From: a virus
DNA: 58,226 bases
Reading direction: 5' to 3' (one strand)
IMG/VR virus record: IMGVR_UViG_3300021364_002910
Span: 1 to 58,226 of that record
Each line of letters starts with the position of its first letter. The stretch's first letter is position 1. The notes under the pieces are model-generated. The model was not told where the DNA came from. It was given only the letters and a program-made list of their open reading frames with translations, and ran no database searches. Of the stretch, positions 77 through 36,910 are shown in pieces. Made by a program: the position numbers and the translations under genes.

Positions 77-706
77 ATGTTTGAAACCATGCACAAAGAA
101 ATTAAAAAGGCTGTGATTAGAAGCCAACACACACAAAGAAATTGGGATTTAAGCAAAGAAATTCCGCAAGATGACTTAGATTTGTTTGTCCATACAGTAA
201 CTAATTGTCCAAGCAAACAAAACTTTGCATTTTATAACGCTCATTTTATCACAGATAGAAAAATTATAGAAAAAATACATGATCTAAGTTTAGGTCTTGG
301 CTATCAAAATGAACAAGGTGAAAGAGTAGAATGTACAAATCCTCAAACATTAGCCAATCTACTTGTTGTGTTTGAAGAAGCAACAATGTCAGAAGAATAT
401 TGGAAAAAATTTGCACTAAGAGACACTTCATCAAAACGAATTCTTGAAAGAGATAGAGATATGGCTATCGGTATAGCGGCAGGATATTTAAATGTTACTG
501 CTGCAATGATGCACTATCAAACTGGATGTTGTGCTTGTTATGATGAACAAGGTGTGAAAGACTTGTTAGATTTAGAAAATAAACCAATACTTATAATGGG
601 GGTTGGTTATAAAGATCCTAACAGACAACGTAGAGAACATCATACTGATGGTGTAAAAATACAACGTAGGATTAAAGAGAAAATTAAGACACAGTTCTAC
701 ATTTAG
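77..706 (+). CDS. nitroreductase-family protein (copy A)
   Basis: This 209-aa protein looks like an FMN-dependent nitroreductase-fold oxidoreductase, a family that moves electrons from NAD(P)H via flavin to varied acceptors. An N-terminal segment NCPSKQN (residues 43-49) resembles the nitroreductase FMN-phosphate-contacting region. A long helix then leads to a cysteine-rich motif TGCCACYDE (149-157) and a C-terminal HHTDG (188-192). The last two motifs recur in the paralogue at 1809-2471 (TGCCKCYDE and HTDG), so they probably serve a shared function, possibly substrate or metal contact. The ATG has an excellent Shine-Dalgarno AAAGGAG six nt upstream. The 3' end overlaps the convergent radical SAM gene by 23 nt. 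The substrate is unknown. Its position beside radical SAM genes suggests a redox step in the same pathway or a reductase for them. Confidence 0.8.
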   Translation: MFETMHKEIKKAVIRSQHTQRNWDLSKEIPQDDLDLFVHTVTNCPSKQNFAFYNAHFITDRKIIEKIHDLSLGLGYQNEQGERVECTNPQTLANLLVVFEEATMSEEYWKKFALRDTSSKRILERDRDMAIGIAAGYLNVTAAMMHYQTGCCACYDEQGVKDLLDLENKPILIMGVGYKDPNRQRREHHTDGVKIQRRIKEKIKTQFYI

Positions 707-1796
707 GTATTTTTGAATCTGCGCTTGATACACAACTTTTTGTAATACACTGTTTAGGTGTCTTAAATAGCTTAAAACCTGTTTCGATGTTGCCAAGTGG
801 GGCATCATGACAAGAATAGGAACGTTTTATACTACCATCTGGTTCGCGTATGATAATTCCTTGATACCCTGCATTACAGTACCATCCTTCAAAATTATTA
901 AAGTTAAACGCATTTAATCGTTCAGCTTGATCTATGTACCATTTTTTACCTGTTTTATCTTCAAACTCTACTTGAAAATGTCCTGGCACAGACGAGTCGT
1001 CCTGTACTCCTTGAGGAACTTCAAAGGTTGCTTTGGGTCTTGCTGTCAGCTCACGTTTAGATTCTGTGTAGGCACGCTGTGGCATACCATTGTATAGGGT
1101 ATTTAGTTGGTTCTGGGTGTAACTATCTACAACACGAGAAGCTGTAGGATCAGATTGAGGTTTTAGTGTGACATTAATACCGCGCTCATGGAGGTAAAGA
1201 GCGTTCTCCCAATCTCTGTCAAACCATTCAGGCACCATCACCATATTCACTGTAACTTGTACATCGTAGGACTGGCAAAATTCTAACTTGTCTGCAAAGT
1301 TGCTTAAATCTTTCATAGTAGCAACATGTTCAGTATGTAAACTTGCAGTTATACTTGCTCTATGAAATGGTTTTGCATATTCAACATATTGCTCAAACCA
1401 CTTAATAGGACGAGAGCAATTTGATGTCATGTGTATGCTTGTATAATTAGTATTTTCTACATCATCTGCAAGATGCTTTAGTATGTCCAAGTATCCAGGA
1501 TGGAAAGTAGGCTCTCCCCCAGACAAACTAAAGTGAAAACTATTAAACCCATTATTTCTTGCTTGCCTTTTAATTTCATCAATTGTCATTAAACAAAGTT
1601 TTGTTGGCCGATGATCTTTTGTATTAGATCTAGCGTATGGCCAACAATAACTGCATCTATAATTACAGTATCTACCTAATAACCAACTTACAGTAAAAAT
1701 ATCTCTGTATAATAATGTTCGTTGTCCTACAGAGACTATATCGTCAAAAGGTATTTTTGAAAAGTCATATTGACTCCACTTCAAATCTTCAGTCAT
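684..1796 (-). CDS. radical SAM enzyme (rSAM 1), no N-terminal twitch domain
   Basis: A 370-aa radical SAM enzyme. The CX3CX2C [4Fe-4S] ligands are C44, C48 and C51 (CNYRCSYC). The SAM-binding GGE is at 93-95 (SGGEPTFHP). The TIM-barrel core fills the first two thirds. The C-terminal part holds further cysteines (WYCNAG, YSCHD, then C..KSC and KC in the last 25 residues), suggesting a SPASM/twitch-like auxiliary Fe-S cluster. Unlike rSAM 2-6 it has no cysteine-rich N-terminal domain, so it is a different subfamily. Nitroreductase genes lie on both sides: it overlaps one by 23 nt at its 3' end and is 12 nt downstream of the other. No clear Shine-Dalgarno precedes the ATG. The substrate is unknown; a peptide or a sugar are both possible for this family. 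Confidence 0.9.
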   Translation of the reverse strand: MTEDLKWSQYDFSKIPFDDIVSVGQRTLLYRDIFTVSWLLGRYCNYRCSYCWPYARSNTKDHRPTKLCLMTIDEIKRQARNNGFNSFHFSLSGGEPTFHPGYLDILKHLADDVENTNYTSIHMTSNCSRPIKWFEQYVEYAKPFHRASITASLHTEHVATMKDLSNFADKLEFCQSYDVQVTVNMVMVPEWFDRDWENALYLHERGINVTLKPQSDPTASRVVDSYTQNQLNTLYNGMPQRAYTESKRELTARPKATFEVPQGVQDDSSVPGHFQVEFEDKTGKKWYIDQAERLNAFNFNNFEGWYCNAGYQGIIIREPDGSIKRSYSCHDAPLGNIETGFKLFKTPKQCITKSCVSSADSKIPKCRTVS

Positions 1797-1808: not shown

Positions 1809-2471
1809 TTAAGAAATTATTATTCTGCGTTGTGATTCCTTAGGAAAAGAATCTGATTCATTTATTCCGTCAGTATGTAAATTATGCTTTTCAAATTTAG
1901 GATAACCTATACCAAGCATTAGACAAATATCATATTTATCATACCCATTATCTGTGAATATACTGTCAGGTAATTGTGGTTCGTCATAGCATTTACAACA
2001 ACCTGTTTTTAATCCAAAAAGGTGTGCTGAAAGTCCTACTGCACCTGCAGATATTCCTATCTCACATTGTACTAACCTTTTATAAACTTGAAGATCAATT
2101 GCCGGTCCTGGATCTCTGCGTTTTTTAGCCTTTGATCGACGATTATCTTTCATTACATATAAAAACAATAAATTACAATCAACTTGAGGATTTTGCAAGC
2201 GTTTTCCGGATCTAATTTTTGAACCTTCTTTTAAATAATTTGTATGTTCGCTAACAGCAGCTACTGCACATTGTCTTATTATTTGTCTGTTAGTAACTGC
2301 AATTACATCAAAATTAACTAGATTTTGTTTTGTTGGTGTGCTTAAAGCAACATTATATAAACATTCCACAAGTTGTGGTTCTACAGTGCGTTCTAAATCA
2401 AAGTTGCGTTGGCATCTTTGAAATCCGTTTACAGCTTTTAAAATTTGATCTTGATAAAATAATTCTTCCAT
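1809..2471 (-). CDS. nitroreductase-family protein (copy B)
   Basis: A 220-aa paralogue of the protein at 77-706. Both share the N-terminal pattern (KAV..Q..QRN.DL), an STPTKQN segment (44-50) at the presumed FMN-binding position, TGCCKCYDE (156-164) and a C-terminal HTDG. I chose the ATG at 2471 because it matches the start of copy A and has GGAG upstream. Upstream in-frame TTG/ATG codons at 2511-2516 would overlap the previous gene by about 38 nt. A basic stretch (RRSKAKKRRD, 111-120) in the middle is absent from copy A. It lies between rSAM 1 and rSAM 2 on the same strand and is probably co-transcribed with them. The substrate is unknown. Confidence 0.78.
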   Translation of the reverse strand: MEELFYQDQILKAVNGFQRCQRNFDLERTVEPQLVECLYNVALSTPTKQNLVNFDVIAVTNRQIIRQCAVAAVSEHTNYLKEGSKIRSGKRLQNPQVDCNLLFLYVMKDNRRSKAKKRRDPGPAIDLQVYKRLVQCEIGISAGAVGLSAHLFGLKTGCCKCYDEPQLPDSIFTDNGYDKYDICLMLGIGYPKFEKHNLHTDGINESDSFPKESQRRIIIS

Positions 2472-2478
2472 ATAATAT

Positions 2479-3717
2479 TTATCTCCAATACAACTTGAAT
2501 TCTGGATAGACATCAAGTATATTAGTATTATGATGTTTATCTAAAACCATAGTGTAATCTATGAATTTATGCCAGTATTTAAATTCATCTTTACTATTCA
2601 TATATCGAATAACCTGATTACCGTATCGCTTTGCACTTGCTATTTGAACTTCTACATTTATGTTAGGTTGCAAATTTTTTGTAATGTTATTTTCTATGTT
2701 TTCTAACCATTCATTCCATTTAAGTGTTAATTGTTTTTTCATTTCTGGTGGCAAAATTCTAGGATTGAGAGCTTGCGGATATTGAACTAAACTTGTATGT
2801 ATATAGGCGCCGATGCTATTATAATATTCAAATATTTCAGTAAGCCGAGTAATATTTAAGACACTTGTTGTACAGGTAGCACTTAGTTTTACATTCTTAA
2901 GTTCTGAATTTACAGTTCTAATATTTTGTTCTACATCTTCTATTTTTTTGTGGGTACGAACATATTCATATATAGGTGGATAACCATCTAAACTAACACG
3001 CAATAATATTCGTCTGTATTGATTCCATAAATCTATAACACTTTTACCTTTATATGTTAGTGTTGTAAGATTACTATTGTAACTCAACATTATATTCTTA
3101 GCATTGGGTAACATATTTTTTATAAAATCATAATGCTTGTCATGGTATATAGGTTCGCCGCCAGATATTAGCACAGCTTTTAAGCTATTACTAATACGTC
3201 CAATCTCGTCAATGGTTTCTATATTTAGATTTTTTGGTGCATCTAGTTCCCTATAAGTTCCATGTTCTAACATTTTTTCTTTTAGTGCAGGATTATCTCT
3301 CACTGCAGCATCCCATTTACTACTATAATCCGAACTACAATGTCTGCACATTAGATTGCAAATATTATCAAATCTTACTTCTAAAAAAATAAGATTATCT
3401 AAGGGCATATTGTAATCTTCATCAATTACACTTCTTACTTGTTCTTCAGTTATGTATAAATTATCTTCTTCTTGTTGTTGCCTAGTACTCACTACACCAC
3501 TATCTTCCATATCCCAACAACTTCTACATCCGGAATGTCTCTCATCATTAAGTAGAGCACGTCTGACATCCCGTAATTGTTCGCCATTCCAAGTTTTTTC
3601 TAAGGTATCATCCGTGTAATCTCCTATCTTACCTGGAAAACGCCAACAGGCACTTATTTTACCTTTTTGTTTTATATTAAGATGAGTGAAGGGTAAACTG
3701 CAATATGTTTTAGACAT
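2479..3717 (-). CDS. twitch-domain radical SAM enzyme (rSAM 2)
   Basis: This 412-aa protein has a cysteine-bearing N-terminal domain (C6 in YCSLPF, C24, and GCRSCW with C64/C67) of the type NCBI calls twitch-domain radical SAM. It probably holds an auxiliary Fe-S cluster. The radical SAM core follows, with C120, C124 and C127 (CNLMCRHC) and GGE at 186-188. The C-terminus ends in a motif shared with rSAM 3, 4, 5, 9 and 10: D..HN(T)N....YPEF..YW. It overlaps rSAM 3 by 8 nt, so translation of the two is probably coupled. Of the N-terminal CC pair seen in rSAM 3-5, only one cysteine (CW) remains here. The reaction is unknown; the family includes dehydrogenases, epimerases and peptide-modifying enzymes. 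Confidence 0.93.
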   Translation of the reverse strand: MSKTYCSLPFTHLNIKQKGKISACWRFPGKIGDYTDDTLEKTWNGEQLRDVRRALLNDERHSGCRSCWDMEDSGVVSTRQQQEEDNLYITEEQVRSVIDEDYNMPLDNLIFLEVRFDNICNLMCRHCSSDYSSKWDAAVRDNPALKEKMLEHGTYRELDAPKNLNIETIDEIGRISNSLKAVLISGGEPIYHDKHYDFIKNMLPNAKNIMLSYNSNLTTLTYKGKSVIDLWNQYRRILLRVSLDGYPPIYEYVRTHKKIEDVEQNIRTVNSELKNVKLSATCTTSVLNITRLTEIFEYYNSIGAYIHTSLVQYPQALNPRILPPEMKKQLTLKWNEWLENIENNITKNLQPNINVEVQIASAKRYGNQVIRYMNSKDEFKYWHKFIDYTMVLDKHHNTNILDVYPEFKLYWR

Positions 3718-5104
3718 CTTTAAAAATATCTTTCATCTCTGGAAATGTTTCATAAAAATTTGTATTCCTTTGTTTATCGCATAGTTCTAAGTATTCCTGC
3801 AATTCTGGCAATCTTACGGTCCAGTCCTCAGACTCCATAAAAGATAACATTCCTTCTAATCTTTTTAAGCCATAATTTGCTTTCTCCCAATCTTCATATT
3901 TTACTGTATGCCAACTAGGAATTCCCAAATGATAATTATCTTTCCACCAAGGATAAAAGTCTTGGTATTTTTTTCGACATTCTTTTTTAAACCATTTTGG
4001 TAATACTTTTACGTTGATGTGCCCAGGCCAATAAACAAAATGATGATTTATACCACCTGCACCAAAAGGCCACATATTAATCTTTTTAAAATTTTGGGTA
4101 AGTTTCCAACGAATAAAATCTGGTATGTAAAAAATATTTAGTGCATTAACTGCACAAGCAACAGTTACTTCTACGTTATCGGTTGTTTCATTGTCTAAAA
4201 TATGAAATACTTCCTCAGTTCTTTTCCATTTACTAGGGTAACGTATATACTCATTCATTTCAAATAAAGAATCTACAGAATAATGAAATCTAACTTTCTT
4301 AAAATTACTCCATAATTCAAATAAATCTTCTCGCCATTCAACACCGTTTGAATTGTATCGTATTTCTAAATTTTCCGCAAAGCCATTTTTTATTGCGTAT
4401 TCTAATATTTCATAATGTTCGTCAATAATCAGACTTTCTCCTCCTGCAAAATATACTTGACGCATTGTTGGCATTTGCTCATAAAACTGATTCCAAAATA
4501 TTGGATTATCTTTATGCCAATTATACGATGAGTAATTTGTGCTGCCTTTATTATCCCACTGCATTATTTCTTTTAGAGAGTCATTCTGTACTTTTGGATA
4601 TATTGCTCCCCAGTCTTTAATCCATCCCGATGAATCATGTGGAGAACACATAATACAACCTAGCTGACACTTTGTACCAAATCGTAAATCTATGTATGTG
4701 AGATGAGCAGGTGAATATCCATCTTCTTCAGTATTAGCTAAAATCCTATTTACGTCAACCCGTTGTGTCCAATACTCTGTTTCCCATTGGCGTTTGGATC
4801 TATGCCCTGCTGCTTCTTCCTTATAACACTTCGTACAAGAAGGAGGTTGCTCTCCATTTAACATTTGTTTACGAACATTCTTCATGTATTTGGAATTCCA
4901 TGCAGTTTGAAAATCTGTAACATTTAAATTGTTAGGTTTACCGTCGTCTGTCTTTAATATTCCTACTTGGCCGCCATGTTCTTTATCATTTGTAGGTCCT
5001 ACCGAAGATGCGTTTGCTGTGCAACAAACTCGCATAGATCCGTCTGGTCGAGTGCTTAAATGAACCCAAGGCAACAGGCAGAATGTATTAGATATGTTTT
5101 CCAT
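3710..5104 (-). CDS. twitch-domain radical SAM enzyme (rSAM 3)
   Basis: A 464-aa member of the twitch-domain radical SAM set. The N-terminal domain opens with FCLLPWVHLS (C9), then CC at 27-28 and SCTKC (C90, C93), presumably an auxiliary cluster. The core motif CQLGCIMC gives C146, C150 and C153. The SAM-binding motif is GGES. The C-terminal tail (RNTNFYETFPEMKDIF) is shared with its paralogues and is probably a structural or partner-binding element. It is the largest of the five twitch-type genes in tandem between 2479 and 8931, and overlaps rSAM 2 by 8 nt. A TGGAA sequence lies upstream of the ATG. The tandem paralogues suggest gene duplication followed by substrate specialisation; the substrate is not known. 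Confidence 0.93.
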   Translation of the reverse strand: MENISNTFCLLPWVHLSTRPDGSMRVCCTANASSVGPTNDKEHGGQVGILKTDDGKPNNLNVTDFQTAWNSKYMKNVRKQMLNGEQPPSCTKCYKEEAAGHRSKRQWETEYWTQRVDVNRILANTEEDGYSPAHLTYIDLRFGTKCQLGCIMCSPHDSSGWIKDWGAIYPKVQNDSLKEIMQWDNKGSTNYSSYNWHKDNPIFWNQFYEQMPTMRQVYFAGGESLIIDEHYEILEYAIKNGFAENLEIRYNSNGVEWREDLFELWSNFKKVRFHYSVDSLFEMNEYIRYPSKWKRTEEVFHILDNETTDNVEVTVACAVNALNIFYIPDFIRWKLTQNFKKINMWPFGAGGINHHFVYWPGHINVKVLPKWFKKECRKKYQDFYPWWKDNYHLGIPSWHTVKYEDWEKANYGLKRLEGMLSFMESEDWTVRLPELQEYLELCDKQRNTNFYETFPEMKDIFKDV

Positions 5105-5127
5105 AAAATTCCATATTATTTAAATTC

Positions 5128-8931: not shown

Positions 8932-8970
8932 AAAAATATTTAGCACCCCTATTAGCGCATAAATAGGTTT

Positions 8971-9819: not shown

Positions 9820-10843
9820 ATTTTCCAATAGGACGAGCACACTTTTGAGATTTAGAACATGTTTGGGTACAGCGGATAAGCCTATCTTTAGCACCAAGTC
9901 CGTGTGTTTTGCTTTGCCAACTGTCAACTAAATCTTCAGAATAAAATCTATTCTCAACTATTTCTTGAAAAGTATAGTGATTTAGACTATTCCAATTTTC
10001 TCCGTAGTTTAAATTGTAACGGTCATAGTGTTCCTTATATTTACTTGCAGTTTGAAAATCAGCATTACGTAAAAAGCAACAAGGCCATACTTTGCTGTCG
10101 TAACTTATAAAATACATTCCTTGTTCTCTAGAAAAACACTCTATTGATTGATTGTTTGTATTTTTCTCTACGTAATTTTTAAATTCTTCCCAGGTCCATT
10201 TTTCCTGTTGAAGATACCATTGAATGTGATCTTCGTAATGGCCTGGAGTAGGCGTTCCTGATCTATCCCTACGATATTTAAATGTTCGGAACCCCATATC
10301 ATTTGCCAGCTGACGTGCTTTTGCAGTGTCTTGTTCATTCCAAGGAAATTCTATATACTGCCATTGTGCATTTGCTTTTGTAGCAATATAAGCTTTTGCA
10401 TTTTCCATTATTTTTTTAAAATTAGATCCTCTCCGGTATAGATGATTAGTATTTTCTAAACCATCTATACTAAATTGCACTTTGCCGTATATAGTTTCAC
10501 CAAGAGTCTTAAAATATTCAGGCGTTCTAAGACTGGCATTTGTATGAACAAATGTTCTTATCTTTTTATCTGCCAGTATTTTTACCATATCTAGGAAATT
10601 TGGATGCACTAAAGGATCATCAACTGATCCACAAAACTGAACCTCTTCAACTTCCTTACTTGCAGGACTTAGTATAAGTTGTTTGAATGTATCTAATGTT
10701 AAATAGATGTTTTTTGGTATTCTTGGGTCACCTTTCATATCAAAACTTAAACCATCAGTTCTACAACATCCTAAACAATTTAGATTGCAATTTGAACTTA
10801 TTTCCATTTGTAATGTTCGTGGGATGCTATAATGTTCGTTCAT
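9800..10843 (-). CDS. radical SAM/SPASM-type enzyme (rSAM 7)
   Basis: This 347-aa protein has the core CNLNCLGC (C19, C23, C26) close to the N-terminus, with no twitch domain before it. The cysteine-rich C-terminal third has C at about 235, a CC pair in VWPCCFLRN, and C325, C329 and C335, as in SPASM auxiliary-cluster domains. The usual GGE is replaced by CGSVDDP (71-77), a variant shared in position with CGNLGDP of its neighbour rSAM 8. Both carry DGL..TNHLYR.G, so they are paralogues. The ATG overlaps the stop of rSAM 8 (ATGA). The end overlaps the plus-strand aminotransferase gene by 20 nt. SPASM enzymes act on peptides or small molecules; the substrate is unknown. Confidence 0.9.
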   Translation of the reverse strand: MNEHYSIPRTLQMEISSNCNLNCLGCCRTDGLSFDMKGDPRIPKNIYLTLDTFKQLILSPASKEVEEVQFCGSVDDPLVHPNFLDMVKILADKKIRTFVHTNASLRTPEYFKTLGETIYGKVQFSIDGLENTNHLYRRGSNFKKIMENAKAYIATKANAQWQYIEFPWNEQDTAKARQLANDMGFRTFKYRRDRSGTPTPGHYEDHIQWYLQQEKWTWEEFKNYVEKNTNNQSIECFSREQGMYFISYDSKVWPCCFLRNADFQTASKYKEHYDRYNLNYGENWNSLNHYTFQEIVENRFYSEDLVDSWQSKTHGLGAKDRLIRCTQTCSKSQKCARPIGKFKVEEF

Positions 10844-11907
10844 TTATATTGCTCTCCAAACGGATCAAACTCTATACCACATTTCGTGGCACAAACCTTT
10901 AGCTTGCCGTCAGAACAAGATGGTTTACTCCAGCTTGCTTCAATGTTATCAAATATTCCTGTCTCAAATACTTTTTGTAAACCGTTACGGGCATCTAACG
11001 CCTGCTTATCTGGTATAAAGTCCCATATTTGTTCTACTGTTGGATCCTTGTGCCACCATTTATACATTCTGCCGGCAGTCCAACAGCATGGTAATGCTAA
11101 TCCTTCAGCTGTTATAAACAAACTGTTTTCTTTTTTCACCTTACAGTGAATAGGAACAGAATCGTAATAATTGTCCATACCACCATAGCGACTGAGAAGA
11201 GCGTCCATATTTTCTACGGCTGCATTTCTATACTCCTCTTTTGGTTTTTTAAGTTCTACAGTTTTATCGCCTTTGCGATTTACTGCTTGATGTTTTTCTT
11301 TTGCTTCTACTTTAGCAGTTACAAATCTTGCTGTTTTTTTAGCTACAAATTTTTCCACACCCCAACTCTCAGCCAATACCCGAGCTTCATCTACTTGATG
11401 TTGATTATGCTCAAATATTAAAAAATCCCAGCGAGCTCTACCACCTGCTTCAATAAATGTTCGCATATTCTGCTCAACGTTGTCCCATACTACCCCTTGC
11501 CGATAAAGATGATTAGTATCGTGTAGTCCATCTACTGAAAAAATCACAGCAGCAGGTTTTTTGAGCACTTTAGCAAGTTCTTTCCACCATTCTCTATCTC
11601 TTGCTCCGCCATTTGTGTTCATAGACAACCACATTTTATCATTGTGATTTCTAAAATATTCAAATATTTTTATTGTATCTTGAGCTATAATAGGATCTCC
11701 TAAATTACCACACATATACATTGTATCTAATTGTTTAATAAATTTTGATTCAAATATTTTTTGGCAATCAAATAATGTAATCTCGTCTAAATTTATATGG
11801 GGATTAAGAGCGCCTCCATTTTGATTTCTATCGCACATTGGACATGAGGCATTACATCTTTGAGTAACCTCTAGATGTATAGCCTTAATATCTTCATATT
11901 TGTACAA
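10840..11907 (-). CDS. radical SAM/SPASM-type enzyme (rSAM 8), TTG start
   Basis: A 355-aa paralogue of rSAM 7. The core is CNASCPMC (C18, C22, C25). CGNLGDP (66-72) stands where most radical SAM proteins have GGE. SVDGLHDTNHLYRQG follows in mid-protein. C-terminal SPASM-like cysteines are IHCKVK, LPCCWTAG and C331, C339 and C343. A Lys/Glu-rich insert (about 195-230) separates core and C-terminal domain and is missing from rSAM 7. The start is TTG at 11907: TAGGAT lies about six nt upstream and no in-frame ATG is near. Upstream lie two TATAAATT elements that could drive this gene and rSAM 7 as a two-gene operon, divergent from the amidinotransferase operon. The target is unknown. Confidence 0.9.
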   Translation of the reverse strand: MYKYEDIKAIHLEVTQRCNASCPMCDRNQNGGALNPHINLDEITLFDCQKIFESKFIKQLDTMYMCGNLGDPIIAQDTIKIFEYFRNHNDKMWLSMNTNGGARDREWWKELAKVLKKPAAVIFSVDGLHDTNHLYRQGVVWDNVEQNMRTFIEAGGRARWDFLIFEHNQHQVDEARVLAESWGVEKFVAKKTARFVTAKVEAKEKHQAVNRKGDKTVELKKPKEEYRNAAVENMDALLSRYGGMDNYYDSVPIHCKVKKENSLFITAEGLALPCCWTAGRMYKWWHKDPTVEQIWDFIPDKQALDARNGLQKVFETGIFDNIEASWSKPSCSDGKLKVCATKCGIEFDPFGEQYK

Positions 11908-15141: not shown

Positions 15142-15355
15142 ACACCATTATTATGTCTTTACCAGGACCTGTTTGACTTGGTAGTCCTTTATATATCTCA
15201 ACATACCATTCAATTACAGTACGATACCAATTTTGAGAATTATGATGAGCTTGCTTATTAAATTTATAGATATTATCATTTGTCGCTTGCATTGTTGATA
15301 ATGCCCTAGCTGACTCCTTTTGTAGTTCTCTTAAAGTCAATTTACTTATATCCAA
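15128..15355 (-). CDS. small helical protein of unknown function
   Basis: A 75-aa protein, largely alpha-helical at the N-terminus (LTLRELQKESARALSTMQA), followed by a short aromatic C-terminal part with NWYRTVIEWYVEIYK. It has no cysteine, signal or membrane segment. It overlaps both neighbours by 14 nt within the minus-strand block, which supports it as a real, translationally coupled gene. I do not recognise the family. It could be an adaptor for the methyltransferase-like protein encoded just upstream (inference). Confidence 0.7.
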   Translation of the reverse strand: MDISKLTLRELQKESARALSTMQATNDNIYKFNKQAHHNSQNWYRTVIEWYVEIYKGLPSQTGPGKDIIMVYDGV

Positions 15356-16046
15356 TTCGCATATACCTATTATATTTTTCTAAAGGAAGTTCTCCTTCAA
15401 ACAATACCTTAGACATTGGGGTTGAATTACCAAAATCAACTAAGGATTTAGAACAATTAATATGATCTTCTATATCAAAATAATTATTTGTTTGCAAAAT
15501 TAACAATGACCCAGCTGGCAAATAATCATACCATAATCTAAAATTGTCTATATGTTCGCAACTTGTGTTTATAATTGTATTCGCAGAATCAGTTATTGGG
15601 TAACTCATTCTATTATTCTTGACACTCCAAAATGTCCAAGAAAAATCTTTATATGTTATATCATGTATGTCATGATGCAATGCTTTAAACTTCCAATCTT
15701 TTGATACATATTTTTTATTTATAGTTTCTGCAATAGGTACACAATCTACATCAATATCAAATGATAATATCCTGTTTATATCAAAATCATCTTCAAATAG
15801 CATACTAGCCAAAATAGCATACCAACCAGCACATAAAAATACAGTTCCTAATTCTTTTATATTACAATTATGTAGTTCTCGCAATAACCATCTTTTACTT
15901 TTTAATTGCCCCCAGGTCAGAGCATCAGTAAAATCTGCATCATAATTATCAACTGCATTTCGTAGACCAGTAAAAAGATATGAATTTGTAAGTAATATCA
16001 TTCTACCATAAATATCTCTATCATCTTGCCATTGTATGTTTTTCAT
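15342..16046 (-). CDS. class I SAM-dependent methyltransferase-like protein
   Basis: A 234-aa protein with a Rossmann-type methyltransferase layout. A first strand and loop, LGTVFLCAGWYAILAS (about 67-81), is followed by an acidic strand end, ILSFDIDVD (93-101), where the acidic residue would hold the SAM ribose, and later by NTIINTSCEHID (a motif IV-like position). The glycine-rich loop is altered (CAGWYA instead of GxGxG). This makes the call less certain and activity unproved. It overlaps the 3' end of the 550-aa glycosyltransferase gene by 26 nt. It could O- or N-methylate a sugar made by the surrounding enzymes (inference). Confidence 0.65.
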   Translation of the reverse strand: MKNIQWQDDRDIYGRMILLTNSYLFTGLRNAVDNYDADFTDALTWGQLKSKRWLLRELHNCNIKELGTVFLCAGWYAILASMLFEDDFDINRILSFDIDVDCVPIAETINKKYVSKDWKFKALHHDIHDITYKDFSWTFWSVKNNRMSYPITDSANTIINTSCEHIDNFRLWYDYLPAGSLLILQTNNYFDIEDHINCSKSLVDFGNSTPMSKVLFEGELPLEKYNRYMRIGYK

Positions 16047-17673
16047 ATTGTTCTTTTAACCACTCAAAATTATTTATTTTCTTTAATGCTTCTACATCAT
16101 CTTTATTTTTATAACCGTACTCTCTTCCTGCTAAAGCTCCTTCTATAGCGTATTCGCCAAATTCTTTATCAGCTCCTACTGTACACCATATGTCTAATCG
16201 TTCTTCTGTTTCTTTTGATTTTTGTCTATTTATAACTTTAGATGCTAACTTACAACATTCTCTAAAAGCTGATTTCCAAGTATTAAATGGATCTGTATTA
16301 AAAGCTGTAATATTAGAAATGTTCGGCATTGCTTTAAACTTATTTGTTATACTAGTTGTCATATCAGGTTTAGATGTATCCATGTCAATTGTTAATTGCC
16401 TAGGAAACAACTTTATTCCACCATATCCGTACACTAAATCATTAATAGGATTTTTTGACCGCCAAACATGCACTGTTTCTCTATCCCACTTTTCTATATA
16501 TAAATCAAAATTAAAATCATCCATTAATATAGCATCAGCGTCAACAATCCAAACCATTTCAGATTGTGATTGTTTTGCTGCCTGTATATGTGCTTGATGA
16601 ATACCTTTTACACCATGAACACGAGTTGCGTGAGGTGCCTTTTCGATCAATTTCTCATAATGTTCATCTGCATTGGATTCATTGTAACTAATAAAAACAA
16701 CATCATATGGTTTATGTTTACTAGCAATAATATTCCATGATTTTTTATAAACAATATGTCTATATTCGATTTCCTTCTTTGTTAATATTTTATGTTTAGA
16801 AAGTAAAAAAACTCCATTTTCCTTCTGTTCATCGTTGCAAACATTAAGAAATACATGATTTTCTTTTCTATTATATACATCATCATGTGTAAAATATAAA
16901 TTTAATTTTTTATTTTGAATTATCTGCTTACTTGTAGCATAGAATAATTCTGTTTTTGCGTTTTTACAAGCTTGTAGGTATTGTTCATATGAATCTATTT
17001 CAAATGTATCATAATCTGTTGGTCCACTTCCTACAACATTCCATTCTATACGAGATACCAAATGTCTATATTCGATTTCATTTTTTGTTAAGACTTTTCT
17101 CTTACTTAATAAAAAAAGTCCATTATAAAATTCTTTGTCATCAACAATGTGTTTAAAAACATGATTTTCTGATTTTACTATTTCTTTAGTAGTAGTTTTA
17201 TGAAAATTATGTATTAAATCTTGATTCACAGAAATATTAGAACTAGACGCCCAAAACATGGTTGTTTTTGTGTTATTTAACGCATGTAAGTAATCCTCAT
17301 AACTATCAACTTCAAAGTAATCATATTTTTGATTATAACTGGCTAAGATATCTACTTCTTTTCTACTTACTAAAAATCTATATTCTATTTCTTTCTCAGA
17401 AATTTTTTTATTTTTTGGTAATAACCATATTCCATCATAATTTAAACCATTTTTAAACACATGAGATACATCTTGACTCCATTCATCGGGTTTATACGTA
17501 AAATCAAAAGTTTCTTCAATTACAATATCATTCCATACAATCCAATAAAATTTTGTTTTTGCTTTTTTTGCAGCAGAAAAAACATTATCAACCTGTTTTA
17601 AATTAATAAATCTATTTTTCAAATTTTGAAAATTACTTTCAATTTTTTCTCCAACGTAAAAAATATCATACAT
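16021..17673 (-). CDS. glycosyltransferase-like protein with three degenerate N-terminal repeats
   Basis: This 550-aa protein has two parts. Residues 323-550 match, along the length, the single-domain protein at 26631-27554 (YDVVFISYNESNA, then RVHGVKGIHQAH, then the DxD-like D378-A-D380, YGYGGIKLFPR, WCTVGAD..FGEYAI). It is probably a GT-A-type transferase. Residues 1-116, 117-220 and 221-322 are three repeats of about 105 aa, each starting YD.F and ending in EIEYR.(L/I)V plus a short strand. Each has an HVF....G(I/L/V)(W/F)LL.K segment that looks like the HVW....GGIKLFPR part of the C-terminal domain. They lack the DxD and may be decayed copies with a binding or spacing role. It overlaps rSAM 9 by 8 nt. 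The sugar donor is unknown. Confidence 0.75.
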   Translation of the reverse strand: MYDIFYVGEKIESNFQNLKNRFINLKQVDNVFSAAKKAKTKFYWIVWNDIVIEETFDFTYKPDEWSQDVSHVFKNGLNYDGIWLLPKNKKISEKEIEYRFLVSRKEVDILASYNQKYDYFEVDSYEDYLHALNNTKTTMFWASSSNISVNQDLIHNFHKTTTKEIVKSENHVFKHIVDDKEFYNGLFLLSKRKVLTKNEIEYRHLVSRIEWNVVGSGPTDYDTFEIDSYEQYLQACKNAKTELFYATSKQIIQNKKLNLYFTHDDVYNRKENHVFLNVCNDEQKENGVFLLSKHKILTKKEIEYRHIVYKKSWNIIASKHKPYDVVFISYNESNADEHYEKLIEKAPHATRVHGVKGIHQAHIQAAKQSQSEMVWIVDADAILMDDFNFDLYIEKWDRETVHVWRSKNPINDLVYGYGGIKLFPRQLTIDMDTSKPDMTTSITNKFKAMPNISNITAFNTDPFNTWKSAFRECCKLASKVINRQKSKETEERLDIWCTVGADKEFGEYAIEGALAGREYGYKNKDDVEALKKINNFEWLKEQYEKHTMAR

Positions 17674-19174
17674 TGTTATACCAAAAGTTTTTTAATTCAG
17701 GAAAAGTTTGTAGGAAGTCTGTGTTCCTTTTTTGGTCATATTGTTTAAAAAATTTAACAAAATTTTTCCGATTAACTGATTTATTAGAATTTGATTTTTG
17801 AAAATATTCTAAATTTCTTCTACATTTATTAATTTCAAAATCATAAAATCCTTCAAAATTAGATGTATCTGAGTTTTCTTCCATAAACTCAATAGCATCA
17901 ATAAAATATTTGTCAAAATCATTTGGTAGTACCAAAATATTCATCCATTCTGGGTTGCGTAAAAGTGGAATATCAAACCAAATTCTTTGTTTAGGATGGA
18001 CTTCATAATCTGGATGTTTATAATAAGGATCGTGGATCGGAATTTTTTTGATTCCTTGTGCATCTTTATTATACTTTTTTCGCAAGTCTAAAACAAATTT
18101 TAAAAATTCTGTAAATTTAGGCAAACTTAATGCATTAAATGTATTAATAAAAGTTAAAGTGGAATTGAATGTTTGTTCTAAATAACTGTTTACATTTTTT
18201 TCTAATACAGAAAAATTTAAACCATCTCTAATATATTCCGCTTGCTTTCCTACACTATCTAAACTTACAAATAATGAAAAATTCTTAAGAGAAGGATTAA
18301 CATACCAGTAATTACCTGAACCAGGATTGAATTTATTTTTATCTTCCCAAATTTGAATTTCTTCTAATTTTTTAATTTTTCCTAAAAATTTATCAAATAA
18401 AGTATGTGTAGGAGGACACAAGTTAGTAGTTATACTTAATTCTAAACTTATATTAGGATTATTGTAAATATAATCTAAAATTTCAAATGTATTATTATCA
18501 ACTAATGGTTCTCCTCCTGTAATTCTAAAAATTTCTAATTTATTATAAAGTTCAGGCCACCATTTCCAAAATGCTTGTAAATATGGATTATCAGCTTGTT
18601 TCATTTTTTTTGGTAATAAATTTAACTCCGATAACGCATTTAGATTGTTATGCTTTACTAAATTATTTGTACTATCAAATACTTCATAATCTCCGTATTG
18701 ATAAACATGATCTTCCCATGCTGTACTAAGATGAGGACTACAGTACATACACTTTAAGTTACAAGCTTGATTAAAATTAATTTCTAAATATCTTGGTTCT
18801 ATATCACCATCTGCTAATACATCAAAAATATCATTCCTAGAATTCTGTGCCCAGTATTCGCCAGACCTATAAATACGATCGCTTCTATTTCCAGTGTCTT
18901 CAATATTCCAACAGTATGAACAGCCGCTAGGCCGTACGCCCTTTAACATGTCTGCACGTTCTGTTTTTTTCTGATTAGTATTATGTAATGCTTTAGGATT
19001 ATCTTTTATTTGATTTAAATCAATTTTATGTAAAGGAGGATGATAACAACTATGAGTCATACCGTTAGCTAAATTTATACTTGATTGTGTCCACTTAGCA
19101 TAACACATTGTTTTACTTATTTTATTTAATTGCGATTCTGCTATATCTGCAAATTTATCATATTCGCTTTTCAT
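17666..19174 (-). CDS. twitch-domain radical SAM enzyme (rSAM 9)
   Basis: A 502-aa enzyme, the longest of the set. The N-terminal twitch-like domain has MCYAKW (C24), THSCYHP (C43) and GCSYCWN (C85, C88). The core has CNLKCMYC (C138, C142, C145) and ITGGEPLVD. The C-terminus ends in KRNTDFLQTFPELKNFW. With rSAM 10 it forms a distinct subfamily (C.AKW, SCYHP.P.HKI, NP.ALHNT.QKK.ERA.ML.GVR) that differs from the LPW type at 2479-8931. Paralogue identity with rSAM 10 looks high by eye. It sits between a glycosyltransferase and an SGNH protein with 4-8 nt overlaps, so it is tied to glycan genes. The reaction is unknown. Confidence 0.93.
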   Translation of the reverse strand: MKSEYDKFADIAESQLNKISKTMCYAKWTQSSINLANGMTHSCYHPPLHKIDLNQIKDNPKALHNTNQKKTERADMLKGVRPSGCSYCWNIEDTGNRSDRIYRSGEYWAQNSRNDIFDVLADGDIEPRYLEINFNQACNLKCMYCSPHLSTAWEDHVYQYGDYEVFDSTNNLVKHNNLNALSELNLLPKKMKQADNPYLQAFWKWWPELYNKLEIFRITGGEPLVDNNTFEILDYIYNNPNISLELSITTNLCPPTHTLFDKFLGKIKKLEEIQIWEDKNKFNPGSGNYWYVNPSLKNFSLFVSLDSVGKQAEYIRDGLNFSVLEKNVNSYLEQTFNSTLTFINTFNALSLPKFTEFLKFVLDLRKKYNKDAQGIKKIPIHDPYYKHPDYEVHPKQRIWFDIPLLRNPEWMNILVLPNDFDKYFIDAIEFMEENSDTSNFEGFYDFEINKCRRNLEYFQKSNSNKSVNRKNFVKFFKQYDQKRNTDFLQTFPELKNFWYNNV

Positions 19175-31171: not shown

Positions 31172-31179
31172 TATTTATA
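31172..31179 (-). promoter_or_regulatory. T4-like late promoter TATAAATA
   Basis: An exact TATAAATA on the minus strand, 24 nt before the ATG at 31147 and overlapping the stop codon of the upstream fibre gene (31175-31177). It would give separate late expression of the 306-aa virion protein. Confidence 0.65.
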
Positions 31180-32743
31180 CAATTATTTCTATCATACCTA
31201 TTTGGTTAGACTTGAAATTTTCTAAACTTTTGCCAATAATACAACTACTATGCGGCATATTTCCTTTATCTGCAGCTTTTGCTACACCTGGTATTTCAGA
31301 GGTAACAAGTATATCACCTTTAACAATAGGACCAATTACTTTACAGGGTACCCTTCCTCTAAGGGCAACTGCAACTTTCATTCCTTGTAGCTCACTATTC
31401 ATTAAATGTGCAGGATTCGTTGATACAACACCAATTACTTTGCTGTCTTCTGTATTTGTTGACTCTGTTACTTCAGCTGTATCTCCTATTACTAGCACTG
31501 TTCCAGGTTCATAATCTTTATCGCTAGTATACATTTCAGCTAAATCTGCATACTGAGCTGAAGTTGCAATTCCCCTAAATAAATTACCCCAAATATCTCC
31601 AGATAAATCTCTTGCAACTATACTAACACCTGCAGTTGGTCTTGCATCTGCTGCAAAATATTCATTTGTTACTACTGTACTTTGAGCATTTATATAAGTT
31701 GCTTTGAATGAATTAGATTTTGTTGCTGTTCCTTCAAAGGTTGTAGCATAAACACTTTGAAAAACATCTGTTGAGCTACCGATATCAACTGTATTTGTGC
31801 CTGAAAACACAAAAGAAGAACTTGCTGGATCAATATTTTGAGCATATCCTGGTAAAATTTTATTATGTGTAAATCTAATAGGCATTCTAACATTATTATC
31901 AGGACTTTTTACTTGAATTATCATTTCAACACCCTGCTCATTACCTACAAGAGCTACATTGTCATTTATTACTCTTAATCCAAGATCTTGCTCATTACCG
32001 ATTTTTATTCCATTATCTCCAAAAGACACTGTAGTACCAGAAAAATCAGCAGCATCTAATCTAACAAACTTATCAGCAGTAAACCCACCTAATCTATCAG
32101 AATTTGTAGCCGTTCCCCACCATCTGTGAGCTGTACTTGTTACTCCAGATGTAGTATTAATAGTATTTTTTAGAGTTAACCCTTCATGGATTTTGTCAAA
32201 GCCCGGATAATTTGTTGCATCTTCTGTACCTATAGTAAATGTAGTACTGCTGATAATGTGAATTACTTCATCGTTTACTACACTTACTATAATAGGTCTA
32301 TTAACTCCTTCGGAATCTCTAAGAGATCTGCTTTGGAATTGAGTAACATTTTCACCTGCACCTTGTGGACCTATTAGAATCCATTCGGTTCCATTATAAA
32401 CATATAATTGTTCATTTTGGCTATCCCACCAAAAATCCCCTTGTGTCAATCCTGCCGGAGCAGTACCACCAACTTCAGAACCGCCAGAAGTTCTCCATTG
32501 TGTACCATCATAAAATTTCAGTTTATTCTGACTATTATCAAACCAAATTTGTCCAGCCAATGCCTTCGGTGGTTGATTTGCGCCTGCAAAATTTTCTAGT
32601 AAAAAAACAAAATTTTCATTTTGTATTTCTCCATATCCAGCATAGTTTTTTCCTACAAGTTTTAGATCTGTAGTCTGATCAATAGTTCCATCTTCTACTA
32701 CAGTTAACTGTGCAGTATTATATGTATTAATTATATAAGCCAT
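31175..32743 (-). CDS. tail-fibre-like protein with C-terminal YADLAE domain
   Basis: This 522-aa protein has an N-terminal module of about 130 residues (TDLKLVGKNYAGYGE.., NENFVFLLENFA, GQIWFD, YNGTEW) shared with the two fibre proteins upstream. It probably binds a common site on the tail. The middle is beta-rich. The C-terminal domain, from YADLAEMYTSDKDYEPGTVL at about 399 to the end, is a module often seen at the end of phage fibre proteins, in some cases annotated as a self-cleaving or intramolecular chaperone (peptidase G2-like) domain; cleavage here is not shown. AGGGG precedes the ATG. It is a candidate receptor-binding or short tail fibre. Confidence 0.78.
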   Translation of the reverse strand: MAYIINTYNTAQLTVVEDGTIDQTTDLKLVGKNYAGYGEIQNENFVFLLENFAGANQPPKALAGQIWFDNSQNKLKFYDGTQWRTSGGSEVGGTAPAGLTQGDFWWDSQNEQLYVYNGTEWILIGPQGAGENVTQFQSRSLRDSEGVNRPIIVSVVNDEVIHIISSTTFTIGTEDATNYPGFDKIHEGLTLKNTINTTSGVTSTAHRWWGTATNSDRLGGFTADKFVRLDAADFSGTTVSFGDNGIKIGNEQDLGLRVINDNVALVGNEQGVEMIIQVKSPDNNVRMPIRFTHNKILPGYAQNIDPASSSFVFSGTNTVDIGSSTDVFQSVYATTFEGTATKSNSFKATYINAQSTVVTNEYFAADARPTAGVSIVARDLSGDIWGNLFRGIATSAQYADLAEMYTSDKDYEPGTVLVIGDTAEVTESTNTEDSKVIGVVSTNPAHLMNSELQGMKVAVALRGRVPCKVIGPIVKGDILVTSEIPGVAKAADKGNMPHSSCIIGKSLENFKSNQIGMIEIIV

Positions 32744-32784
32744 TCATATTACCCCTGATATATATCTTATATTTACCCTAATTC

Positions 32785-34809
32785 TTAGACAATAACCCTA
32801 TCAACTCCTGTACTGTTCCAATTTGCTCCATCACTGCGAAATCTATATACAAATCTGTCAACCGTAAACTCTATATTTGTTGTAGATCCTGAATATGCAG
32901 GGTTTGCAACAATATCTTGGACAACTGCAACTGTTCCAGTATTATCAAAATTTCTTACAGTAACTCTAGATTTTTGTAAAACTGCAGTATCTTCTTCAGA
33001 AACTGTTATAGGAAAAACTGCTGTAATTTGTCTAATTCTTGTAGCCATTATTTTTACATCAGTATTTGGCAAAGATTCTTCTATAGGTAACATGTAATTT
33101 AATACAGTCCTAACATTATCTATTGTTGCTGCATAAAAAGGTGTATAATCTGGATCACCGTCAACAATCAACCCGTTTATATCTAATGACAATAATATTT
33201 CTTTACCGTCTACTGCTCTATCAACATATTCTTTATTTGCACCATCTTTTAAATCTACTGGATCAGCTAAATTTGTTATTCTATTATAATTTGCAAAACT
33301 GACAGTACCATTATCTGCTGGTGTAATACTTGTTCCTCCAGCATTAATTGTAATACCTTTCCCATTTATTCGAGAAATTGTTGCAGAATCTATATTAATA
33401 TTATCAACTGTAAGGTTAATTAAAGTTCCTAATTCGCTTAATCCAGTACCTTTTGTAACCGCTGGAAATAATTCGTCACCTGATAAAACCGTAACACCAT
33501 CTACTTTATAAACTGGATCAGTGTTATTTGCTGTAACTTTCAAATCAATATTTTGGTTACTAGTCCAAGATTCATTTGTTAAATCCCATAAAAATTCTTT
33601 ATTGCTATCAGTACTTCTTAGTATTATACCACCACCATCAATTGCAGCATCATTTCCAACTACATCATTTTCACCTACTGCTAATTCTATAGTCTTATCT
33701 GCTATTCTTAAATCTTCTGAATTTACATAAGTTATGTCTCCGCCTACAGCTAATGACCCTCCAATGGACATATTACCTGTAACAGTTAGATCAGCATTTA
33801 CATCAAATTCAGGTCTACTCTCCAAAATATCGAACGGTGGTAACCCTGAAAACATTGAAATTTTATAAGACGATGTATCTATCAATAATGCATTTAAAAA
33901 ATTATTAGGAAATTGGCTATTTTTAATTCTTATGCCAAAATTTGAATTAACTTGTAAATTATCTATAAATGCTGTAGAACCAGATATTTTCGTGTTTACA
34001 AAAGGTCTATCTCCAATACCTATTGTTAACCCTTGACTGTTTTTTATATTAATATATCCTGTAGTGACTCCGTTTCCATCTGTTGGTAAAAAATTAACAG
34101 CAGTTTTTTGAACACCTTGATCGTCTATCAAAAATTTTGCATTTACACTAGTTCCTCTCCACCAAAAACCGTCTATACCCGAATCTGTTGATAAAGATGC
34201 AATATTAAAACCTTTATATAATTTTTGCCTTTTAGGTGAAATAGTGTCATTCTCCCAAATATCTAGCCCTGGAATGGAAAACTGAATAGGGATAATAAAT
34301 TCTGCTGGCGAATATATACCAACTAACACACCGCCTAGGAAAAGTTTTAATATAGTTCTAGTAATATTATTAGAATCTACTTGACTAGCAGATTCGAACC
34401 CAGTCTTTCCTTGCCCTGCATCATATGTAGGTCCAACTAAGGTTAAATCAGACCCATCAAACAGATATAATCTATTGTTTGCATTATCTATCCATATATC
34501 GCCGGCTACTAAATTTGTTGGTTGCGAACTATTAACAATAGTTCCTGTTGCAGATCTAAAAGTTGTTCCGTTAAAAATCTTTAATCTTTGATCTTGTTTG
34601 TCATACCATAATTGACCTGTTAAAGGATTTGCAGGTTGAGATGTACTTGCAAAATTTTCTAATAATTTTACAAAATTTTCATTTAACCATTCGCCAAAAC
34701 CTTTATAATTTCGGCCTATCAAAGTTAAATCTGTTGCACTGGTATCTATTATACCATCAATCAAATCTACTAACAATTCACCGTCAGTTCTATTAATCCT
34801 ATAACTCAT
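32785..34809 (-). CDS. tail-fibre-like protein (674 aa)
   Basis: This protein shares the N-terminal module (TDLTLIGRNYKGFGE, NENFVKLLENFA, PLTGQLWYD, FDGSDLTLVGP) with its two neighbours. A long beta-rich shaft follows, with GSLAVGGDITYVNSEDLRIA and similar strand-turn repeats (about 350-480). Its C-terminus lacks both the collar domain of the upstream paralogue and the YADLAE domain of the downstream one. It has AGGAT before the ATG and is four nt downstream of the collar-domain fibre gene. It is probably a tail-fibre or whisker-like part; which of the three binds the host is unknown. Confidence 0.75.
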   Translation of the reverse strand: MSYRINRTDGELLVDLIDGIIDTSATDLTLIGRNYKGFGEWLNENFVKLLENFASTSQPANPLTGQLWYDKQDQRLKIFNGTTFRSATGTIVNSSQPTNLVAGDIWIDNANNRLYLFDGSDLTLVGPTYDAGQGKTGFESASQVDSNNITRTILKLFLGGVLVGIYSPAEFIIPIQFSIPGLDIWENDTISPKRQKLYKGFNIASLSTDSGIDGFWWRGTSVNAKFLIDDQGVQKTAVNFLPTDGNGVTTGYINIKNSQGLTIGIGDRPFVNTKISGSTAFIDNLQVNSNFGIRIKNSQFPNNFLNALLIDTSSYKISMFSGLPPFDILESRPEFDVNADLTVTGNMSIGGSLAVGGDITYVNSEDLRIADKTIELAVGENDVVGNDAAIDGGGIILRSTDSNKEFLWDLTNESWTSNQNIDLKVTANNTDPVYKVDGVTVLSGDELFPAVTKGTGLSELGTLINLTVDNINIDSATISRINGKGITINAGGTSITPADNGTVSFANYNRITNLADPVDLKDGANKEYVDRAVDGKEILLSLDINGLIVDGDPDYTPFYAATIDNVRTVLNYMLPIEESLPNTDVKIMATRIRQITAVFPITVSEEDTAVLQKSRVTVRNFDNTGTVAVVQDIVANPAYSGSTTNIEFTVDRFVYRFRSDGANWNSTGVDRVIV

Positions 34810-34813
34810 TAAA

Positions 34814-36910
34814 TTATCCTGCGTATATTATATAATTAAGTGCCATGAAAGGGTTTATAACATCAACAGCAGTGTTTAGTATTTGATCTGTTTTAATCCC
34901 TTGTGTATTTTTCATCGCAACTCCTGTAAATTCTGTTTGCTGCTCATAAAAATGATAATCAACTACTTCGTCATCAACTATCTCAAATTGTTTTTGTGTT
35001 GTAGCATAAAATTGTGTATCATTATAATATAAATCATGTTTATGGTCAGGCAAATTTGTTTCGTCTAACACAACTGCCTCTTGTCCCCCTATACCACCTA
35101 TTATTTGAGCATTAGGATCGTTAACAATACTTTGATTAGGTGTAAGTCCTCCCATATTATGAACACCTAAAGGAAATCTACCTCTCAAGTCTGGTACAGC
35201 AAAAAATCCCACTTTAACTAAATCAACTGATTTGTACTTATATCCTATTAGTGAGTACAATTCTTGATAATCAACCGTTTGTACTTCTTGTCCATTACAT
35301 AAAAGCCAACCAACTGGCGCATTATCTCCTGCAAAAGGAACAATAGTACCAATTGGCATTACAGGAACAGTTGCAAGTAAATCGTTAACTGCTACTTTTT
35401 TAAGTCCAATATTTTCTCTAATACGATATAAAATTAATTCATCATCAGGTTGAGTATTAATAATTTTTTCTTTACTATTAATAAAAGGCGCTGTTAACTC
35501 AGTAATGAATTCAACCTGCTCACCTTGTCCTGTAAAATTTAAAACCCCTTCCTCTACTTCTGTGGAATTTAATAATTTTACGTCACCTGAAAAAATAAAT
35601 TGTGATGCTTTAGCAAGTTTATTTGCAGACCCTGCTCTACCTGTTACAGAGCCTGTAACAGTTCCTGTTAAATCACCATAAAATCTTTTAGAATAAACAG
35701 CATTATATCTTAAACTAGGCGTTCCTAAATAGGAATCTTCTGTCCCTAATAATTCGTCAGCATCACGATTTGGAACAAGTTTATTTGAAAATATTTGGCT
35801 ATCAATATTAGCATTTAAATAAAGATTACCACCAATTGTAACACTTTTCGCAACTCCTATGCCGCCAGCAGTAACAATAGACCCATTTGAAAATAAATTA
35901 CTATCTTGCGTATTATTAACAAAAATTTTACCTTTAGATAAATCATTTGCAGGAACAGAGGTTTGTATATTACCATTTACATCTAATTCTGCATCTGGAT
36001 TGTCTTTAGCTATACCTACTTTCATGGAGCTGTCAAAACGAGCTATTGTTTTAAAAATTCCATCGTTTCTTACTTTTAAATCAATAGCTGATCCTGCTAC
36101 ATTATGTTTTAGAACACCAACTGACCCTTCTACTCCTATTGCTAATTCTGAATTACGTCCGTATAGAATGCCTGTATTATTCAAAACAGAAATTTGAAAA
36201 TTCGTTGCGCTAATTGCATCGCCTCTTAAGAAATTACCGCCAAGAACTGTTTCGTTACCAATCTGCAAACTTTCTGCTTTTTCAGCTAGTCCATAATACT
36301 TTGCTTCAGACTGTCCTGGTAATATTTTATTTGTAAGATTTAATCCTGGTTTTATTGTAACAAATCCATCAATTTTTAATTTAGGCGTAAATTCTCGCAT
36401 AGAAATAATTACAGAAGGAACTCCATTTATATCTATCTGTAACACATTATAATTTTTATCATCGATACCAGATAATACTTTAGGAGTTGCGCCTGTAACT
36501 ACTCCGTCACTAAATTCTGGTCCAATTAGTATCCAACCTCCTGCATCTGTGTACATATATAATTGTAAATTCTCTCTGTCAATCCACAAATCGCCTTCTT
36601 GTTTAATAGCTGGAGCAGATTCTGATTTGTTAACGCCATTCACAGGAGCCCAATTAGCTCCATTGTAAACCATTAATTGTTCTTTATCTGGAGAAGAATC
36701 GTACCAAACTTGGCCTTCTACTGGCGTGCTAGGTGCAGTAGGAGATGCAAAATTTTCTAATAAGTGTAGAAAGTTTTCTGCTATTATTGTACCATAAGAT
36801 GTAGTATTTTTTCCAGGCAATTTAACCGATGTTTCATTGTTAATACTACCATCCTCTACAACAATGCCTAATTTATTAACATAATCTGTAAATAATATTT
36901 GATATGGCAT
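34814..36910 (-). CDS. tail-fibre-like protein with tail-collar domain
   Basis: A 698-aa protein. The N-terminal module is shared with the next two genes (SVKLPGKNTTSYGT, AENFLHLLENFA, PVEGQVWYD). A beta-rich middle follows, and then a phage tail-collar domain at about 520-590: MPIGTIVPFAGDNAPVGWLL, CNGQ, then VPDLRGRFPLG. This domain is known from T4 short tail fibre gp12 and many fibres. It is followed by HKHDLYYND and a C-terminal trimer tip. TAGGAG precedes the ATG. It is the best candidate for a gp12-like short tail fibre in this window, though the N-terminal module is not that of T4 gp12. Confidence 0.85.
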   Translation of the reverse strand: MPYQILFTDYVNKLGIVVEDGSINNETSVKLPGKNTTSYGTIIAENFLHLLENFASPTAPSTPVEGQVWYDSSPDKEQLMVYNGANWAPVNGVNKSESAPAIKQEGDLWIDRENLQLYMYTDAGGWILIGPEFSDGVVTGATPKVLSGIDDKNYNVLQIDINGVPSVIISMREFTPKLKIDGFVTIKPGLNLTNKILPGQSEAKYYGLAEKAESLQIGNETVLGGNFLRGDAISATNFQISVLNNTGILYGRNSELAIGVEGSVGVLKHNVAGSAIDLKVRNDGIFKTIARFDSSMKVGIAKDNPDAELDVNGNIQTSVPANDLSKGKIFVNNTQDSNLFSNGSIVTAGGIGVAKSVTIGGNLYLNANIDSQIFSNKLVPNRDADELLGTEDSYLGTPSLRYNAVYSKRFYGDLTGTVTGSVTGRAGSANKLAKASQFIFSGDVKLLNSTEVEEGVLNFTGQGEQVEFITELTAPFINSKEKIINTQPDDELILYRIRENIGLKKVAVNDLLATVPVMPIGTIVPFAGDNAPVGWLLCNGQEVQTVDYQELYSLIGYKYKSVDLVKVGFFAVPDLRGRFPLGVHNMGGLTPNQSIVNDPNAQIIGGIGGQEAVVLDETNLPDHKHDLYYNDTQFYATTQKQFEIVDDEVVDYHFYEQQTEFTGVAMKNTQGIKTDQILNTAVDVINPFMALNYIIYAG

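Follow-up and report, generated by a model that had tools for sequence, protein, structure and literature searches.

The K4 chondroitin polymerase of E. coli (PDB 2z86) possesses two full GT-A glycosyltransferase domains with separate donors, and, as in CHSY3-CHPF, two GT-A domains are thereby present in one chain or complex. In LH3 (PLOD3), a human lysyl hydroxylase and glycosyltransferase (GT), a non-catalytic GT-A-like domain known as the AC domain shares its chain with an active GT, and a role in substrate recognition has been proposed for it (PMC6082870). Among phages, marine myophages have host-recognition clusters in which tail fibres are found with glycosyltransferase and radical SAM cassettes (PMC7029224), and 12 radical SAM genes have been described in the genome of a T4-like phage (PMC5332604).

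The gene described here, GT_B (protein P0001), comes from an uncultured phage represented by a 58-kb IMG/VR virus record (IMGVR_UViG_3300021364_002910), and the window referred to throughout is the whole of this 58,226-nucleotide stretch. The explanation we prefer, in which about half of our confidence is placed, is that GT_B is a glycosyltransferase with an arm of pseudo-GT modules that arose through repeated duplication of its own core, the arm most likely binding the acceptor. The features concerned are as follows.

16021-17673, minus strand: GT_B (P0001), ATG start, 550 aa, three pseudo-GT modules and a GT-A catalytic domain
17338..17673, minus strand: module R1 (aa 1-112), read as a truncated GT-A core, first Asp of the DxD replaced (VWND)
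17026..17337, minus strand: module R2 (aa 113-216), compact, former active site SSSN
16720..17025, minus strand: module R3 (aa 217-318), compact, former active site TSKQ
16024..16719, minus strand: predicted catalytic domain (aa 319-550), from its GT-A fold match and invariant residues
16534..16542, minus strand: DxD motif D378-A379-D380, both Asp invariant
16417..16431, minus strand: glycine-rich YGYGG (aa 415-419), candidate G-loop, with invariant residues and assigned by position
16024..16290, minus strand: C-terminal helices (aa 462-550), not present in the modules, candidate base and acceptor region
17569, no strand: recombination junction within R1, start of the block common to the window and locus L003
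26631..27554, minus strand: GT_A (P0002), paralogous catalytic GT without modules
15342..16046, minus strand: conserved downstream neighbour, 234 aa, no family match
684..1796, minus strand: radical SAM enzyme of the shared five-gene cassette
3710..5104, minus strand: twitch-domain radical SAM enzyme of the shared cassette
10840..11907, minus strand: radical SAM enzyme of the shared cassette
31175..36910, minus strand: tail fibre and tail collar genes, 14 kb upstream of GT_B

Gene neighbourhood and partner enzymes

The window also encodes a gp25-like baseplate protein, a 1143-aa baseplate wedge protein, and tail-collar and tail-fibre genes. By its sequence the window is likely to be a fragment of a jumbo myovirus, since the closest relatives of the wedge protein in phage records (33-38% identity) belong to large myoviruses, among them Atu_ph07 (490 kb) and GAP32 (359 kb). 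A single 5411-aa ORF (37550-53785, minus strand) has the baseplate wedge gene on one side and the tail fibres on the other, and around ten radical SAM genes are present in the window (684-11907, 17666-19174 and 25264-26628), several of which belong to the twitch-domain family NF033640. Sequence similar to the downstream neighbour of GT_B was found in 38 of about 90 loci, with nothing matching it in Pfam, PHROGs or NCBIfam.

Two MAG contigs of Bdellovibrionia (L091 and L092) each carry counterparts of five genes of the window, encoding GT_A, GT_B and three radical SAM enzymes, and GT_B is bare there, that is, without modules. Judging from neighbouring ATPase and protease genes, these contigs are probably chromosomal, and identity to the set in the window is 43-63% (59%, 46% and 62% for the radical SAM proteins). 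Partial sets occur in other Bdellovibrionia, and a GT_B-like match was found in 11 of 144 Bdellovibrionia genomes. A GT_A-type domain was detected in 35 of the 136 ladder loci and 22 of the 38 bare loci, both counts being limited by short flanks. GT_A and GT_B are also found fused in a single chain (L049:4056-5678, L063:4074-5681 and L090:3051-4634), and an independent pseudo-GT fusion is seen at L077:4347-5675, where an N-terminal GT_A-like stretch without a DxD precedes a GT_B catalytic domain.

At six module-gene loci (L004, L021, L053, L168, L171 and L172) an S74-chaperone tail fibre and an Anp1-like GT are present. Behind these two genes in L168 (3605-6139), L171 (3839-6373) and L172 stand module-only genes, whose proteins have seven confident modules and one divergent module without a catalytic domain. 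In L174 and L176 the array extends over two overlapping ORFs, 3998-5296 (four modules) and 5274-6251 (one module and the catalytic domain). Assembly error is unlikely to lie behind the module-only genes, which come from three samples, and is less surely excluded for the split arrays, which come from two.

The arm could be a protein-protein scaffold that docks GT_A, the radical SAM enzymes and small GTs to GT_B, rather than a binder of sugar or acceptor, as GT_A and three specific radical SAM enzymes accompany GT_B from phages to Bdellovibrionia contigs, GT_A-GT_B fusions occur, and module-only proteins adjoin a separate Anp1-like GT. The Bdellovibrionia set, however, contains a bare GT_B, which makes the pathway independent of the arm, and 0-16 copies with similar neighbours are hard to reconcile with fixed docking partners. 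We regard docking as unlikely, if still worth serious consideration, and prefer acceptor binding because the length of the arm varies freely, because bare forms occur with the same partners, and because an aromatic residue often stands in the remodelled former donor site.

Homology, predicted fold and motifs

Self-alignment of GT_B shows three tandem modules, as the initial annotation had proposed, with boundaries within around 4 aa of those given there. In local alignments against 500 shuffles, the module pairs scored Z 14.7 (R1/R2), 16.8 (R1/R3) and 35.7 (R2/R3), and R1 aligned with the first 108 aa of the catalytic domain at Z 11.6, equalled by 0 of 500 shuffles. Pairwise, neither R2 (Z -0.3) nor R3 (Z 2.2) was by itself significantly similar to the catalytic domain, their relation to it being visible through profiles only. 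A profile of 168 modules matched one of 75 catalytic domains with an E-value of 3.4e-16, across the N-terminal 112 of 231 columns, and five control comparisons (the C-terminal half, a reversed profile and three column-shuffled profiles) gave E-values of 0.018 to 0.53. The modules had been likened to the N-terminal half of the catalytic domain; the homology holds, but the copied part is more than half, module 1 spanning in structure alignments the GT-A core that the catalytic domain also has, and the extent homologous to the modules is the N-terminal 60% of the domain. A module profile made without catalytic domains weakly matches the catalytic domain of its own proteins (20-43 bits) and has no match in the paralogous GT_A proteins, including the nearby P0002, which fits intragenic duplication. 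Derivation of the modules from the other GT (P0002) was dropped on this absence of a match.

The full-length AlphaFold2 model, built with 31 relatives, has a pLDDT of 88 and a pTM of 0.74, and a model of the modules alone (20 relatives) has a pLDDT of 91 and a pTM of 0.81, a high confidence which suggests that the predicted arrangement is defined and not loose. Against GT-A structures, aa 319-461 of the catalytic domain scored a best Z of 11.3 (B4GALNT1), with Z about 10 over 131-135 residues for WrtF (9omh) and ThuS (7msk). Module 1 was taken from the modules-alone model, in which the catalytic domain is absent so that no signal is borrowed from it, and scored Z 8.7 against the same structures over 116 residues (rmsd 2.9 A), a Z just above 8 being moderate. 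Both align to residues 5-193 of WrtF (9omh_B), and module 1 ends ahead of the C-terminal helices. Structure prediction, the check suggested alongside the original observation, therefore gives a GT-A core for module 1 and not an unrelated fold, and R2 and R3 are taken to share this fold through their clear homology to module 1. The strand-helix unit alpha1-beta2 is retained in R1 and missing from R2 and R3, and the modules are interpreted as GT-A cores minus the C-terminal helices, with internal modules also lacking alpha1-beta2. Foldseek found nothing at E <0.001 in the PDB for the modules-alone model, the best matches again being GT-A enzymes, and with the full model the top match was the K4 chondroitin polymerase. 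That the modules are degenerate copies of the protein's own fold is backed by sequence, profiles and predicted structure, and both their intragenic duplication and their GT-A fold are well supported.

The DxD (D378-A379-D380) is positioned as first reported and missing from the modules, and both of its Asp residues are invariant in the alignment of 31 sequences and in 75 catalytic domains. Y415, G416, G418 and G419 of the downstream YGYGG are invariant in the 31-sequence alignment, and by position this motif may be the G-loop of GT-A enzymes described in PMC7185993. In the same alignment, F470, R471 and E472 of the C-terminal helices are invariant and W466 nearly so, making these helices a candidate base and acceptor region. 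An obvious xED was not seen in the catalytic domain, in which E472 is invariant and D461 nearly invariant; GT-A families without the xED-Asp exist (PMC7185993). Another GT-A-like enzyme, for example a nucleotidyltransferase in a radical-SAM-dependent pathway, might be considered since IspD and MobA score near GTs in structure comparison and the Pfam GT2 matches of P0001 fall under the curated cut-offs (14.9 vs 23.3 bits for PF00535, 16.1 vs 27 for PF13641). Such an enzyme is nevertheless highly improbable, because the DxD is invariant and has a glycine-rich motif after it, an order known from GT-A transferases, because the weak matches in Pfam are mainly to GT families (GT2, with a best E-value of 3.5e-05 over 31 relatives), and because the top Foldseek matches of the full model are mostly GTs.

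At the former active site, R1 of the window retains the second Asp of the DxD within VWND, while R2 has SSSN and R3 TSKQ. The first Asp is gone from 298 of 300 modules (73 proteins), the residues at this position including W (100), S (90), P (61), Y (15), F (7) and Asp (2), and is thus replaced by an aromatic residue in 122 of the 300. Aromatic residues are frequent in sugar-binding sites, and those at the first-Asp position may be linked to sugar binding. Module types W (aromatic), S ([ST]SxN) and P (PxD) were recognized from the former active site, these classes being defined after inspecting the sequences. A lone module at L054:4917-6032, one of the two with the first Asp, still has DDD at the DxD position and is a possible intermediate between an active copy and a pseudo-module. 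Were the modules still to bind nucleotide sugars, as a donor reservoir or as transferases of low activity, the second Asp of the DxD in R1 (retained in 67 of 73 first modules) and its alpha1-beta2 unit would have a ready explanation, and some metal-independent GT-A families lack the DxD (PMC7185993). The near-universal loss of the first Asp, however, together with the missing alpha1-beta2 of internal modules and the missing C-terminal helices of all modules, makes donor binding very unlikely.

Duplication, recombination and selection

Patterns for the catalytic domain identified at least 595 confirmed viral stretches and those for the modules at least 547, and the GT_B family occurs in >500 viral contigs. 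Searching 50,697 phage records by tblastn with P0001, the catalytic domain of a relative (L005) and P0002 gave no match; the search itself works, as the baseplate protein of the window found 66 records in the same set. Pfam, PHROGs, NCBIfam and PADLOC gave no confident family for GT_B, and a sequence search of the PDB gave nothing useful. A match to phrog_5150 (E 0.0056) was dropped, only two members having matched. In BFVD, the three-module model matched A0A6J5LK21 (388 columns, E 1e-11) and A0A6J5L5L5 (519 columns, E 9e-11), uncharacterised proteins of uncultured Caudovirales phage that are probably of the same family.

Module copy number per protein is 0, 1-7 or 16, with 39 GT_B-type domains lacking modules. 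On the catalytic-domain tree, a quick search with moderate support, module number changed at least 31 times and module presence at least twice (starred branches) to six times, with the bare Bdellovibrionia proteins placed near the root. Two genes with 98% identical catalytic domains (L061 and L071) differ in copy solely by one in-frame 321-nt gap, corresponding to one module (five modules in L061, four in L071), and in L044 an A-B-C super-unit of modules is repeated. Tandem Repeats Finder returned nothing on L044 because the module copies have diverged at the DNA level. The variation in copy number, its changes on the tree, the one-module difference and the super-unit bear out the earlier suggestion of recurrent duplication. 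The window and L003 share a 1630-bp block that is 99.6% identical and starts at 17569 within R1, with no similarity upstream, and this sharp junction is a mosaic exchange.

Modules may also be mainly the by-product of recombination-prone repeats, tolerated but not used. Frequent changes in copy number, the mosaic junction within R1, and the 25 of 82 internal modules whose nearest relative is in the same protein would all be expected of such a ratchet. We consider it highly unlikely all the same, since the modules are, by their sequences, under purifying selection about as strong as that on the catalytic domain (omega mostly 0.05-0.3, rough values as many dS exceed 1 and are near saturation), their end types are conserved and their order is non-random, and modules are retained as module-only proteins. 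Neutral decay was dropped on the omega values and the conserved order. For first modules the nearest outside relative is also a first module in 38 of 38 cases, and for last modules it is a last module in 30 of 39. Mixed arrays have a W-type module first in 36 of 45 and a P-type module last in 31 of 45, compared with means near 12 in within-protein shuffles, none of 5000 being as high, although the proteins are related and the shuffles overstate independence. The W-first, P-last order itself is plain from the sequences. It is conceivable, if rather unlikely, that the arrays are a combinatorial recognition device: the three types would be strung as W-S...S-P, or as repeated W-S-P-like cycles in the 16-module proteins, such that their order and number correspond to the repeats of a glycan or fibre acceptor, much as tandem DNA- or RNA-reading repeats correspond to a sequence.

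Proposed role of the arm and known systems

As an acceptor-binding glycosyltransferase, GT_B would be a metal-dependent GT-A enzyme in a phage-encoded pathway that modifies a surface or a tail fibre. Its N-terminal modules would have come from repeated in-frame duplication of its own GT-A core, the copies losing both the DxD and the catalytic helices at the C-terminus and being retained as a rigid, stackable arm. This arm would most likely bind the acceptor, either a glycan or a fibre protein with repeats, via the rebuilt former donor pocket and hand it to the single active site, with changes in module number and type tuning reach and specificity. We infer catalysis, acceptor binding and the identity of the acceptor in this scheme, and the ladder of sugar-binding modules feeding one active site put forward in the initial annotation is a reasonable inference. 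The existence of bare relatives without any arm counts against it. Conservation of the modules may stem from packing and not from a binding site, because the best-conserved residues are partly fold residues (G, L and an aromatic core). The S74 fibre is found in only 6 of the 136 ladder loci within the flanks examined, and as far as these loci go, tail fibres are not the substrate throughout the family.

By analogy, the AC domain of LH3 is the nearest precedent for the arm. An LH3 chain (6fxm) is among the Foldseek matches of the full GT_B model, and the modules have features of an AC-type pseudo-GT, namely the GT-A fold (module 1) and the loss of catalytic motifs. The likeness is at the domain level, and LH3 differs in that its one accessory domain is fixed and belongs to an enzyme that also has a hydroxylase, whereas GT_B has a variable tandem array. 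The K4 chondroitin polymerase shares the pairing of GT-A domains but lacks truncated modules in arrays. GT2-like GT-A transferases (WrtF, ThuS, PF00535/PF13641) share the catalytic fold, the DxD and a weak Pfam GT2 match, but have no N-terminal module array, and GT_B scores under the Pfam cut-offs. The host-recognition clusters of marine myophages resemble the context of GT_B, although a module array is not described in the available parts of those reports (PMC7029224, PMC5332604), and a full-text search of open-access literature returned no paper on such pseudo-GT arrays.

GT_B gives access to a gene family that is widespread among uncultured phages and has no name, and whose bare form is also found in bacteria, in a cassette of five genes of which three encode radical SAM enzymes. 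The arm, which probably grips whatever GT_B modifies, seems to be extended and rearranged by phages. Single inactive GT domains beside active ones are known, whereas the literature searched yielded no array of 0-16 whose length differs by entire modules from one near-identical phage gene to another, and GT_B provides a natural series, the same catalytic domain with different arm lengths, in which to ask what pseudo-enzyme domains contribute to an enzyme.
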